A program made the translations under genes and the position numbers. The notes beneath the pieces are model-generated. The model saw nothing but the letters and a program-made list of their open reading frames with translations. It made no database searches and was not told where the DNA came from. Positions 14,025 through 18,712 of a stretch of 37,866 nucleotides of DNA are shown in pieces. Origin of the DNA: Alphaproteobacteria bacterium (GTDB taxonomy: Bacteria; Pseudomonadota; Alphaproteobacteria; GCA-2731375); assembly GCA_021776235.1 (NCBI GenBank), contig JAJFGG010000149.1:1-37866 (forward strand), in the 5' to 3' direction. Every line of letters begins with the position of its first letter. The first letter of the stretch is position 1.

Positions 14025-15313
14025 GCACGGCAGAAGACATCGGGGCGGACGGGACGTCTGATTTACAGCGGCAGATGCTGGATCTGGGCACCGCCGCGCG
14101 GGCAGCGGCGGCGCTTTTGGCCAAGACCCCGGCAGGGGCGAAAAACCTTGCCCTGGGCGCAGCGGCCGCGGCCATGCGGGACGGCGCAGGGGCGATCCTG
14201 GCGGCCAACGCGACCGACATGGCGGCCGCGGAAGAGCGGGATTTAAGCCCGGCCCTGCTGGACCGGCTTTTATTGACGCCCGACCGCGTCGAAGCCATGG
14301 CCAAGGGCCTGGAAGCGGTTGCCGGCCTGACTGATCCGGTCGGCGCTGTTATCAGTGAATGGGAGCGCCCCAACGGTCTGCGCATTGCGCGGGTTCGCGT
14401 ACCCTTGGGGGTCATCGGCATCATCTATGAATCCCGGCCCAACGTAACGGCTGATGCGGGCGCCCTGTGTCTGAAATCTGGCAACGCGGCAATCCTGCGC
14501 GGCGGTTCGGAAAGCTTCCACTCCTCGCGCGCCATCCATGCCTGCCTGTTGGCCGGCCTGCGGGCGGCGGGCCTGCCCGAAGGGGCGATCCAGTTGCTGC
14601 CGACGCGGGACCGGGCGGCGGTCGGCATGCTGCTGAGCATGCACCAGCATATCGACATCATCGTGCCCCGCGGCGGCCGCGGCCTGATCGAGCGGGTGCA
14701 GAACGAAAGCCGGATACCGGTGATCGCCCATCTGGACGGCAACTGTCACGTCTATGTGGACGGCTCGGCCGATCTGGCGATGGCCCGTCAGGTCTCGCTG
14801 AACGCCAAAATGCGCCGCACCGGCATTTGCGGCGCCGCGGAAACCCTTCTGGTGGACAGCCATTGTGCCGCCTCGCATCTGGCGCCATTGATCAGGGATC
14901 TGCTGGATGCGGGTTGCGAGGTGCGCGGCGACGGGGCGACACAAGGGTTGGATGCGCGGGTGGTGGCGGCCCGGGAAAGCGATTGGCGGACGGAATATCT
15001 CGATAGTATCATCGCCGTGAAGGTGGTGGATGGCGTTGACGCCGCGATGGCGCATATCGAAGAATTCGGCTCCCACCACACCGACTGTATCATCGCCGGC
15101 GACGCCGCGGTGGCGGAACGTTTTCTGGCCGAGGTCGATAGCGCCATCGTGCTGCACAACGCCTCGACGCAATTTGCCGACGGCGGAGAGTTCGGCATGG
15201 GGGCGGAGATCGGCATATCCACCAACCGCCTGCACGCCCGTGGCCCGGTTGGGGTCGAACAACTGACCTCGTATAAATATGTCGTGCACGGCCAGGGCCA
15301 GCAACGGCCCTAG
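14021..15313 (+). CDS. proA: Gamma-glutamyl phosphate reductase
   Basis: ProA reduces the ProB product with NADPH to glutamate-5-semialdehyde. Aldehyde dehydrogenase-fold markers include [28 protein letters not shown], the catalytic Cys in [24 protein letters not shown] and [20 protein letters not shown] 14021 is preferred because it overlaps the proB stop as ATGA, repeating the obgE-proB junction. ATG 14012, three codons earlier, is possible but has no better ribosome site. Length 430 is normal. Confidence 0.97.
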
Positions 15314-15389
15314 AGCCATTCAGATTGAATGTGCGCAAATTGGTTCAGCAAGCGCAATTGAAGCAATCAACCAGGCGGCGGTGCAAAGC

Positions 15390-15983
15390 ATGGCACGGTT
15401 GAAAATTGGCCTGCTGGGCGGGTCCTTCAATCCGGCCCATGAGGGTCATCGCCATATTTCGCTGCTGGCCCTGAAACGGCTGCAACTGGATCAGGTCTGG
15501 TGGCTGGTATCGCCGCAAAATCCGCTGAAGGCCGGCGCCGGCATGGCGCCCCTGGCCCAGCGCCTTGCCGGGGCCGGCGCCATGACCCGGCATCCGCGCA
15601 TTCGGGCCAGCGACCTGGAAAGCCGCCTGGGCACCCGGTATACCGTGGACACCCTGGCGGCCATCCGGCGGCGCTGGCCGGGGCATGCTTTCGTCTGGCT
15701 GATGGGGGCGGATAATCTGGTGCAACTGCCGCGCTGGCATCGCTGGTCCGAGATCGTCGAGATGGTGCCCATGGCCATCTTCAATCGCCCCGGTCAGGGC
15801 CACCGCGCCCTGGCCGGGGCCGCCGCCGCCCGCTTTGCCGGCAATCGTGTGCGTAACCCGGCCGCTCTGCCCAACGCCCGTGCGCCGGCCTGGTGCTTCC
15901 TGTTTACACGGTTGCACCCGGCCTCCAGCACCGCGATCCGGGCCGGCCGGGAGGGCGTGGACAAAACCGGGAAAGAGGCATGA
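15390..15983 (+). CDS. nadD: Nicotinate-nucleotide adenylyltransferase
   Basis: NadD joins nicotinic acid mononucleotide and ATP to make deamido-NAD, the molecule that LarB also uses. Markers are LLGGSFNPAHEGHRHIS (the HxGH-type nucleotidyltransferase motif), WWLVSPQNPLK, WLMGADNL, WHRWSEI and the C-terminal ASSTAIR. Its 197 residues are typical. ATG 15390 begins right before the family core; GTG 15381 is an alternative adding three residues. Downstream rsfS has its own promoter overlapping the nadD stop. Confidence 0.93.
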   Translation: MARLKIGLLGGSFNPAHEGHRHISLLALKRLQLDQVWWLVSPQNPLKAGAGMAPLAQRLAGAGAMTRHPRIRASDLESRLGTRYTVDTLAAIRRRWPGHAFVWLMGADNLVQLPRWHRWSEIVEMVPMAIFNRPGQGHRALAGAAAARFAGNRVRNPAALPNARAPAWCFLFTRLHPASSTAIRAGREGVDKTGKEA

Positions 15984-16008
15984 CATTTCGCTGAAATGTT
16001 GCCATAAT
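15980..16008 (+). promoter_or_regulatory. rsfS promoter with palindrome in its spacer
   Basis: ATGACA (15980-15985), 17 bases, then CATAAT (16003-16008): each hexamer is one base from consensus and the spacing is ideal. The spacer holds a perfect inverted repeat, ACATTTC-GCT-GAAATGT (15983-15999), well placed for a repressor. The promoter overlaps the end of nadD and starts transcription near 16015. Confidence 0.55.
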
Positions 16009-16038
16009 CGGGGATTGCAAGTGGAGACAAGGGTAATT

Positions 16039-16075
16039 ATGCAACATGCTGACAGTTAGGAGCTATTCACCATAG
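16039..16075 (+). other. Two mini-ORFs in the rsfS leader
   Basis: ATG 16039, with AAGGG before it, opens six codons and stops at TAG 16057, inside the rsfS ribosome site. ATG 16046 opens nine codons and stops at TAG 16073, overlapping the proposed ATA start as ATAG. Translation of either could control or couple entry at rsfS. They may also simply be chance. Confidence 0.3.
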
Positions 16076-16446
16076 CAAGCGCAAGGCAGACGCCAGCCTA
16101 CAGCCAAGAATTGCTGGCACTCGTGAATGGTTCTCTCGATGAAGATCAGGCGGAAGAGCTTGTTGTCATCGACCTGGAAGGCAAATCCACCATTGCCGAT
16201 TACATGGTGATCGCCAACGGCCGCTCGGATCGCCATGTGGGCGCCATGGCGGATCATCTGATGCGCCGGGTCAAGGAAGAGGGCCTGGGCCGCTGCAAGG
16301 TCGAAGGCCTGGGCAAGCGCGATTGGGTCCTGCTCGACCTGGGTGACATCATTGTGCATCTGTTTCGCCCGGAAGTCCGGGAGTTCTATAACCTTGAGAA
16401 AATGTGGTCCATCGAGATGGCGGAGCCTGAACGCGCCGCCCTTTAG
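16072..16446 (+). CDS. rsfS: Ribosome silencing factor RsfS, no AUG start
   Basis: RsfS (RsfA/Iojap) binds L14 and blocks subunit joining when nutrients are short. The core is unmistakable: EELVVIDLEGKSTIADYMVIANGRSDRHVGAMADHL, and DLGDIIVHLFRPEVREFYNLEKMW. The start is odd. The frame is open from TAG at 16057-16059 and contains no ATG or GTG before the conserved domain. ATA at 16072 has a strong ribosome site (TTAGGAG, nine bases away) and includes the usual first helix. TTG at 16111 would cut that helix. ATG 16039 is in frame but is separated by the TAG. I chose ATA; a start at TTG or a sequence error remains possible. Confidence 0.85.
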   Translation: MASARQTPAYSQELLALVNGSLDEDQAEELVVIDLEGKSTIADYMVIANGRSDRHVGAMADHLMRRVKEEGLGRCKVEGLGKRDWVLLDLGDIIVHLFRPEVREFYNLEKMWSIEMAEPERAAL

Positions 16447-16522
16447 GCTGGACGGCGCTGGCCTGGCGCAAGCCGTGATGGGCTGCGGGTCGGGCTGATG
16501 TCAATGACCATTGGTATAAACC

Positions 16523-16981
16523 TTGCGCATTAGCATCTGTGCCGTTGGCCGGGCCCGGGGCCACCCGACGGCTGAAATTTGCCAAACCTATCTGCAACGG
16601 CTGCCCTGGTCCGTCGTGATCCGCGAGGTTGAGGTTCGCAAGAATCTGGCCGGCGAAAAACTGGCCATGGCCGAGGCCGAATTGTTGCGTGCCGCCTTGC
16701 CGGCCCGGGCCGTTGTGGTGGCCCTGGACGGCAGGGGCAAGGTGCTTTCCAGTGAAGCCTTCGCGCAACGCCTGGGCCGTTGGCGGGATGACGGCGTCGC
16801 CGACCTGGCATTTGCCATCGGTGGCGCCAACGGCTTGCACCCTGATTTCTCCCGGGCGGCGGATCTTACCCTGTCCCTGGGCGCCATGACCTGGCCGCAT
16901 TTGCTGGCCCGCGCAATGTTGATGGAACAGCTGTACAGGGCCCAAACCATACTAGCCGGGCATCCCTATCATCGGGCCTAG
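16523..16981 (+). CDS. rlmH: 23S rRNA pseudouridine-1915 methyltransferase
   Basis: RlmH methylates pseudouridine 1915 of 23S rRNA in the assembled 70S ribosome. The 152-residue SPOUT protein opens with MRISICAVGRAR, has VVALDGRGKVLSSEAFAQ and FAIGGANGL (the knot), and ends YRAQTILAGHPYHRA, all standard. The start must be TTG at 16523, since homology begins at that codon; no ribosome site is seen, but TATAAA stands a few bases upstream. It follows rsfS, its usual neighbour. Confidence 0.93.
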   Translation: MRISICAVGRARGHPTAEICQTYLQRLPWSVVIREVEVRKNLAGEKLAMAEAELLRAALPARAVVVALDGRGKVLSSEAFAQRLGRWRDDGVADLAFAIGGANGLHPDFSRAADLTLSLGAMTWPHLLARAMLMEQLYRAQTILAGHPYHRA

Positions 16982-17098
16982 GGGGAGATCACTTTTCGGC
17001 TATGTGCGGGCGAAATATGCTCTAGCGGTTGCAATCAGCGCAAGCTGCGCCATATTGGGACCGATTCGGACGTTAACGACTAGATTTTGAGGATTAGG

Positions 17099-18712
17099 GT
17101 GAAGAACCAGCGGCGGCCCGTTGTACTTTGTATCCTGGATGGCTGGGGTTATCGGGCGGCTTCGGCTGACAACGGCATCGCCCTGGCCGAGACCCCGGTC
17201 TATGACCAATTGCTGGCGAACGAGCCGCACGCCCTGTTGCAGACCTCGGGGCAGGCCGTTGGTTTACCCGACGGCCAGATGGGCAATTCCGAAGTGGGTC
17301 ACCAGAATATCGGCGCCGGGCGCGTAGTGCTGCAGGATCTGCCCCGCATCGATGCCGCGGTGGCGGACGGCAACTTGGCGGATAACCCGCGCCTGGCCGA
17401 GTTTATCGCCAAATTGCGCAGCAGCGGTGGTGCCTGCCATTTGTTGGGACTGCTATCACCCGGTGGCGTCCACTCCCATCAGGACCATATGCTTGCCCTT
17501 GCCAACATCATCGCCGATGCCGGCGTGACGGTTTGGCTGCATTGTTTCATGGACGGCCGTGACACACCGCCCAGCAGCGGCGCGGCTTCTATGGCTAGGT
17601 TTCTGGCCGCTATCGCAGGGCAAGACAACATTCGCATCGGCACCGTTTGCGGCCGCTATTACGCCATGGACCGCGACAACCGGTGGCAGCGGGTAAAACA
17701 AGCCTATGACACGCTGGTCGGGGCCTCGGGCGAGGCCGCAGGCGTGGCGCCGGGCGACGCCGGCAGCGTGATCCGGGCATCTTACGCCCAGGACATACAG
17801 GATGAATTTATTCTGCCGGTCGCCCTGGCCGGCTATCCGGGCATGGTGGACGGCGACGGCCTGCTGATGGCCAATTTTCGGGCCGACCGGGCACGGGAAA
17901 TACTCACGGCCCTGGTGGATCCGGCATTTACCGGCTTTGCCCGCGACCGGGTGCCGGATTTTGCCGATCGGCTGGGCATGGTCACTTATTCCACCGCCCT
18001 GGATGCCAGAATAGGGACGCTGTTCCCCGCCATAGCAGTGCGCCAAACTCTGGGCGAAGTCGTGGCCGCTGCCGGTTTGCGGCAGTTGCGCATCGCCGAG
18101 ACCGAGAAATACGCCCATGTGACATTCTTCCTGAACGGCGGTGACGAGGCTGTATTCGAGGGCGAGGACCGCATCCTGGTACCCTCGCCAAAGGTCGCGA
18201 CCTATGACCTGGCCCCGGAAATGTCGGCCGGCGAAGTCACTGATAACCTGGTGACCGCGATCCGGGGCGGTCAATATGACCTGATTGTGGTCAACTATGC
18301 CAATCCGGATATGGTCGGCCATACGGGGAAGCTGGCAGCGGCCTTGCTGGCCGTGGCCATGATCGACCGCTGCCTGGGCAGACTGTGCGAAGCCGTGCAT
18401 GCCATAGATGGCTGCCTTTTGATCGCCGCCGACCACGGCAACATTGAACTGATGCGCGATCCTGACAACGATGGAGAACATACAGCCCATACCACGGGGC
18501 CGGTGCCGGTTGTCCTGGTGAACGGACCGCGCCTGGCAAACCAGCAGCGCAACCCCTTGCGGGATGGCAGCCTGGCTGATCTGGCGCCCACTGTTCTAAG
18601 CCTGATGGGGCTGGGCCAGCCGGCTCAGATGACCGGCCGAAGTTTACTGACAGCAGTAGCTAAATCGGAGCCAACGCCCCTGCCGACCGCACCAGCGAGA
18701 CAACGTGGCTAA
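17099..18712 (+). CDS. gpmI: Cofactor-independent phosphoglycerate mutase
   Basis: GpmI interconverts 3- and 2-phosphoglycerate in glycolysis using two metal ions, usually manganese. It has LCILDGWGYR with the metal Asp, the catalytic Ser64 in GQMGNSEVGHQNIGAG, HCFMDGRDTPP, NFRADRARE, and the C-terminal ADHGNIE and EHTAHTTGPVP metal ligands. Its 537 residues are slightly longer than usual. GTG 17099 has GAGG six bases upstream; TTG 17087 is in frame but less well placed. The stop overlaps the envC start by eight bases. Confidence 0.96.
   Translation: MKNQRRPVVLCILDGWGYRAASADNGIALAETPVYDQLLANEPHALLQTSGQAVGLPDGQMGNSEVGHQNIGAGRVVLQDLPRIDAAVADGNLADNPRLAEFIAKLRSSGGACHLLGLLSPGGVHSHQDHMLALANIIADAGVTVWLHCFMDGRDTPPSSGAASMARFLAAIAGQDNIRIGTVCGRYYAMDRDNRWQRVKQAYDTLVGASGEAAGVAPGDAGSVIRASYAQDIQDEFILPVALAGYPGMVDGDGLLMANFRADRAREILTALVDPAFTGFARDRVPDFADRLGMVTYSTALDARIGTLFPAIAVRQTLGEVVAAAGLRQLRIAETEKYAHVTFFLNGGDEAVFEGEDRILVPSPKVATYDLAPEMSAGEVTDNLVTAIRGGQYDLIVVNYANPDMVGHTGKLAAALLAVAMIDRCLGRLCEAVHAIDGCLLIAADHGNIELMRDPDNDGEHTAHTTGPVPVVLVNGPRLANQQRNPLRDGSLADLAPTVLSLMGLGQPAQMTGRSLLTAVAKSEPTPLPTAPARQRG

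Follow-up and report, generated by a model that had tools for sequence, protein, structure and literature searches.

Initiation factor IF3 acts as an anti-association factor on the 30S subunit, and the codon AUA pairs with the initiator anticodon at two positions. Overlapping stop-start gene pairs of the ATGA type represent a familiar arrangement for translational coupling. Non-canonical start codons are already known from infC, Streptomyces sigR, S. aureus ccpN and cvfC1 and, reportedly, E. coli pcnB; for the AUA, AUU or AUC start assigned here to rsfS across Alphaproteobacteria, a literature search on titles and abstract openings of open papers showed no earlier report among the papers listed.

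The available part of PMC5472188 describes non-canonical starts outside infC as having been studied experimentally in few cases, and reports that IF3 represses both infC, in an autocontrol circuit, and the GTC start of Streptomyces sigR. In S. aureus, conserved AUA (ccpN) and AUU (cvfC1) starts located behind strong ribosome sites were mapped experimentally, according to the accessible portion of PMC13009471. Proteogenomics of Nostoc yielded ten genes with ATA or ATT starts, as given in the part of PMC8557916 at hand. RsfS itself prevents the interaction of 50S and 30S subunits and is translated in E. coli from a weak UUG codon (PMC10917681, in the text available), the start of rsfS in strain K-12 being TTG.

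The window, meaning the whole stretch of DNA that was analysed (37,866 nt), comes from an alphaproteobacterial genome. The closest relatives that carry a name are MAGs filed under Rhodospirillaceae, Alphaproteobacteria or Proteobacteria, apparently marine to judge from their isolate names. All features of the window described below lie on the forward strand. Matches to Pfam, and additionally to NCBIfam TIGR00090 for rsfS, give the gene order nadD (15390..15983; PF01467, 60.6 bits), rsfS (16072..16446) and rlmH (16523..16981; PF02590, 151.4 bits). The rsfS product, 124 aa long when counted from AUA, exceeds the curated cut-offs of TIGR00090 (118.4 bits, cut-off 56.9) and PF02410 (114 bits, cut-off 21.6), which places it in the RsfS/Iojap family of ribosomal silencing factors. 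The opening codon of rlmH, a gene used below as a control, is apparently TTG (16523-16525).

A first, sequence-only reading of this DNA had stated that neither ATG nor GTG opens the rsfS frame and had proposed ATA 16072, preceded by a good ribosome site, as the start. The coordinates proved accurate to the base, and the comparisons below support the proposed start. Past the upstream stop, the first ATG, GTG or TTG in the rsfS frame is TTG 16111, with GTG 16123 further inside, and the ATA codon (16072..16074) follows a Shine-Dalgarno sequence AGGAG (16058..16062) at a spacing of 9 nt, an arrangement kept in relatives. The gene thereby shows two features of the infC class, namely an AUA, AUU or AUC start, assigned here by comparison only, and a properly spaced Shine-Dalgarno sequence, as in infC of the same genome.

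Alignment of the leader in relatives, which the same reading had recommended, revealed an identical ATA in 11 of the 11 genomes retaining the 5' end of rsfS, comprising 10 genomes of the genus and one of a sister genus (G011); the genus holds 11 genomes, and G008, in which only the last 21 residues of rsfS were matched, was excluded from the start counts. Mean pairwise identity within the genus is 1.0 for ATA and 0.84 for the Shine-Dalgarno segment (-16..-1), compared with 0.50 just past the -10 box and 0.68 at the fourfold sites of rsfS. The remaining isoleucine codons of the 11 rsfS genes are ATC (62), ATT (11) and ATA (3), and ATA accounts for 10 of 109 isoleucine codons in seven genes of the window; given this scarcity, codon bias does not explain the conserved ATA start. 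In four congeners whose ribosome site contains no TAG (L002, L004, L006 and L008), the frame upstream of AUA stays open for 17 to 23 codons and contains no ATG, GTG or TTG. Two further genera of the family carry ATA (G012) and ATC (G013), both after a four-base site within a longer open frame, and rsfS was not found in G014.

Beyond the family, a profile search over the 385 class genomes recovered PF02410 from 347. The start region was then compared in 74 families, each represented by one genome per family code that was hand-picked among the best-scoring matches listed rather than drawn at random, with rlmH and nadD as controls (n = 59, the 15 other loci having no usable match). When the region from the upstream stop to residue 13 is considered, rsfS lacks an in-frame ATG, GTG or TTG in 15 of the 74 families among the listed matches, compared with 0/59 for rlmH (p = 0.0001) and 1/59 for nadD (p = 0.0009); frames with no upstream stop in reach (7/74 for rsfS, 13/59 for nadD and 2/59 for rlmH) were not scored as lacking a canonical start. 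When the limit is set at residue 9, such a codon is missing in 22 of 74 families, again among the matches listed. Locus L132 is the sole nadD of the 59 with no ATG, GTG or TTG from the upstream stop to the core.

A Shine-Dalgarno run of at least 5 matched bases occurs in the searched stretch in 48 of the 74 families (listed matches), where the following in-frame codon is AUA, AUU or AUC in 25, CUG in 11, AUG in 3, and UUG and GUG in 1 each, while 8 families have no such codon, with locus L134 scored twice, as AUG and as AUA/AUU/AUC. In the other two frames of the same 48 families, AUA/AUU/AUC appear 1 and 0 times (p = 1.5e-8 and 8e-10 against the 25 in frame). Under a weaker rule of 4 or more matched bases, the 74 families of listed matches divide into ATA (21), ATC (8), ATT (6), CTG (15), ATG (4), TTG (2), GTG (2) and no assignment (16). 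The same rule places AUA/AUU/AUC in 8 and 5 of 74 in the other frames of rsfS, and in frame in 1/59 rlmH and 3/59 nadD loci. The earlier remark that AUA starts are very rare does not hold for rsfS in this class, where AUA/AUU/AUC form the commonest assignment, covering 35 of 58 assignable families among the listed matches. As far as codons assigned from sequence can tell, the habit is not universal, since 8/74 families are assigned ATG, GTG or TTG and 16/74 none. Where gene finders accept ATG, GTG and TTG only, the N-termini of alphaproteobacterial RsfS proteins may be misannotated.

The 4+ base rule was also applied to infC as a positive control and placed AUA, AUU or AUC in 29 of 30 loci (ATA 14, ATC 14, ATT 1, none 1), a set in which 11 of the 30 come from the window's own genus. 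In that genus, infC starts with ATC at the same 9-nt spacing as rsfS in 11/11 loci (L190 to L200), the window's genome (L199) among them. For rsfS, named species include Magnetospirillum aberrantis, with AAGGAG-N7-ATA, Insolitispirillum peregrinum, with ATA, and Telmatospirillum siberiense, with ATT, which has a GTG two codons and an ATG three codons downstream. A TTG start was assigned in one member of Sphingomonadales and in one Kordiimonas. Within a single genus (code g91, family f87), the codon after the Shine-Dalgarno sequence is ATA in L118 and L119 and ATC in L137. Among gammaproteobacterial rsfS loci, most remained without assignment by the rule, and the assigned ones carry mostly ATG. 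An rsfS protein tree of 100 rows and 108 columns was mostly unresolved (64 of 97 inner branches open), and the 17 changes among three start classes that it implies are a rough count only, given this poor resolution.

Compared with the systems described above, rsfS shares with infC an AUA, AUU or AUC start after a good Shine-Dalgarno sequence, the avoidance of AUG and, in this genus, the 9-nt spacing. It differs in that RsfS is not IF3, so that any control of rsfS by IF3 would be cross-control rather than feedback. Streptomyces sigR, as presented in the available part of PMC5472188, is likewise a gene other than infC with a genus-conserved non-canonical start and a strong ribosome site; however, its codon is GTC, it encodes a sigma factor in another phylum, and the action of IF3 was demonstrated there, whereas for rsfS it is proposed. 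The S. aureus genes ccpN and cvfC1 resemble rsfS in their conserved AUA or AUU start and strong ribosome site, although they are different genes of a different phylum whose starts were mapped by experiment (PMC13009471, in the portion accessible), while that of rsfS was located by comparison. E. coli offers the same gene with a weak non-AUG start, but UUG is a table-11 start codon, unlike the AUA, AUU and AUC of alphaproteobacterial rsfS. As in ATGA-type pairs, the sequences AUAG and AUAA set an upstream stop, belonging to a mini-ORF or to nadD, on the rsfS start; here, however, the start is AUA instead of AUG, and coupling would follow by analogy.

The leader of rsfS contains further conserved elements. 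A sigma-70-type promoter-like site, ATGACA-17-CATAAT (15980..16008), matches the consensus at 10 of 12 positions; the native sequence has one such site where shuffles average 0.2, and both hexamers are identical in 10/10 genus members. The nadD stop codon TGA (15981-15983) sits within its -35 box. From the -10 box to AUA the distance is 63-65 nt in the genus and 79 nt in L008. Downstream, a leader ribosome site AAGGG together with ATG 16039 (16029..16041) marks the mini-ORF start region; a 19-nt stretch here has a mean pairwise identity of 0.77 over 10 genus members. The sequence-only reading had described two short frames here. The nine-codon frame from ATG 16046 (16046..16075, MLTVRSYSP) was located correctly, its stop TAG (16073-16075) overlapping ATA as ATAG. 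The frame opening at ATG 16039 in the rsfS frame is likewise real and ends after six codons (16039..16059) with a TAG (16057-16059) overlapping AGGAG, but this six-codon shape turned out to be a local, 2-nt-shifted version of a longer leader ORF, which in 6/10 genus members runs from the counterpart of ATG 16039 through to AUA.

An upstream ORF ending on the downstream start, one feature of stop-start coupling, was found both in the genus, where it is the mini-ORF, and elsewhere, where it is nadD. An ATG mini-ORF ends on AUA as AUAG or AUAA in 8/10 genus members, the window included; L007 and L008 both stop earlier, and the sister-genus locus L010 has no ATG there. With the overlap missing from two of the ten congeners and from the sister genus, coupling is not essential and would be at most partial. 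Among the 21 AUA families, the nadD stop itself lies on the rsfS AUA as AUAG or AUAA in six (L025, L113, L151, L156, L158 and L174), and 17 carry no short ATG ORF ending on AUA. A purine directly follows AUA in 17/21 families compared with 5/14 after AUU or AUC (p = 0.012, in a small test devised post hoc from the data), which hints that AUA may have been chosen partly for its capacity to carry an overlapping stop. Concealment of the start region in RNA structure was considered and dropped: of 200 shuffles of the segment 16015-16131, 195 were at least as stable as the native fold (z +1.8), and no structural switch is claimed. No known leader RNA matched Rfam at the gathering threshold within 15000-17600.

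Several other readings of this start were weighed. TTG 16111, the first table-11 start in the rsfS frame, could be the true start, with the upstream conservation reflecting a regulatory leader. At this position, however, four of the 11 relatives (L007, L008, L009 and L010) have CTT or CTG, and the TTG of the window has no Shine-Dalgarno sequence, while AGGAG and AUA are conserved and families devoid of an in-frame canonical codon share the arrangement; translation from TTG was accordingly rejected as very improbable. A comparably slim chance, if anything slightly smaller, is given to fusion of the mini-ORF with rsfS through a -1 frameshift at CCATAG, which would make the mini-ORF AUG the true start. 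The stop overlap of the mini-ORF in most genus members would suit such a fusion, but no slippery heptamer is visible by eye at the overlap, which is in addition lost in L007, L008 and L010, and most AUA families (17 of 21) offer no short ATG ORF to be fused; this candidate was likewise set aside. A sequencing or assembly error that removed an ATG or an open frame, the missed base that the sequence-only reading had asked to have re-read, has nothing in its favour beyond the oddity of the start. The recurrence of the identical codon in 11 genomes of different species refutes it, leaving it with practically no credibility.

The reading preferred here is that rsfS starts at AUA 16072 and that selection holds this codon weak, with IF3 control and stop-start coupling as the favoured means, and taken as a whole it appears probable. 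The AUA start itself is well supported by the comparisons above; IF3 control and coupling are inferred. Initiator tRNA would begin translation of rsfS at AUA 16072 with the aid of AGGAG, IF3 would discriminate against initiation at this codon so that little RsfS is made, and a drop in free IF3 would allow RsfS to rise. Since infC, with its AUC start, would be subject to the same control, both genes would respond together. A ribosome that completes the leader mini-ORF at AUAG would halt on the start codon and could re-initiate there, as could one completing nadD in six other families. In lineages that have the AUAR overlap, ribosomes terminating on nadD or on the leader mini-ORF would feed the weak start.

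The chances stand about even that IF3 discriminates against the rsfS start codon throughout Alphaproteobacteria, which would make rsfS its second class-wide target beside infC. In that case, the level of the 50S anti-association factor would be set by its 30S counterpart, and a fall in free IF3 would lead to co-production of RsfS and IF3. Because RsfS blocks 50S-30S joining and IF3 opposes association on the 30S side, the two factors would be tied together. According to the available part of PMC10158994, IF3 accepts nothing but Watson-Crick pairing at the first two bases and excludes weak pairs at the third, and the initiator tRNA drops off when IF3 is too low, so that a simple relation of low IF3 to more RsfS is not assured. 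Re-initiation is lowered by IF3, less so when a Shine-Dalgarno sequence is present (PMC2268962, in the part at hand).

The main competitor retains the same AUA start and holds that the codon merely fixes a constant low rate of RsfS synthesis, read by no factor, IF3 included. AUA and AUU reporters of S. aureus, which reached ~10% of AUG in poor medium, agree with it, and so does the likewise weak TTG start of E. coli rsfS. In rich medium, one of three S. aureus reporters rose up to 30%, one rose modestly and one did not, and one AUA and one AUU start responded little or not at all to the medium (PMC13009471, as far as the accessible portion reports). Nevertheless, a poor Shine-Dalgarno sequence or a GUG or UUG start would suffice to keep synthesis low, yet the 5+ base site is present in 48/74 listed families and UUG or GUG was assigned in just 4/74 (listed matches); a strong site combined with AUA, AUU or AUC is the infC pattern. 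A constant low rate consequently remains a serious but less likely alternative, short of an even chance. These estimates overlap, as the competitor shares the AUA start with the reading judged probable overall, and the even chance applies to the IF3 part alone.

The recurrence of weak rsfS starts suggests, on comparative grounds, a built-in brake on RsfS production. A single gene keeps AUA, AUU or AUC starts over many families, and that gene itself regulates the joining of ribosome subunits; if the IF3 interpretation is true, the start codon would link two anti-association factors.

After sites of 5 or more matched bases, CUG occurs 11 times in frame compared with 1 and 1 in the other frames of the 48 families. 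Under the weaker 4+ base rule, however, its frequency in rsfS (15/74) is inseparable from the nadD background (9/59, p = 0.50). CUG as an rsfS start class, which passes the strict test and fails the weaker one against nadD, is thus likely but unproven. In loci L040, L041, L049, L066, L069 and L074, from Caulobacteraceae and Hyphomonadaceae-type MAGs, CTG follows GGAG or AAGGAG, and no in-frame ATG, GTG or TTG precedes the core.
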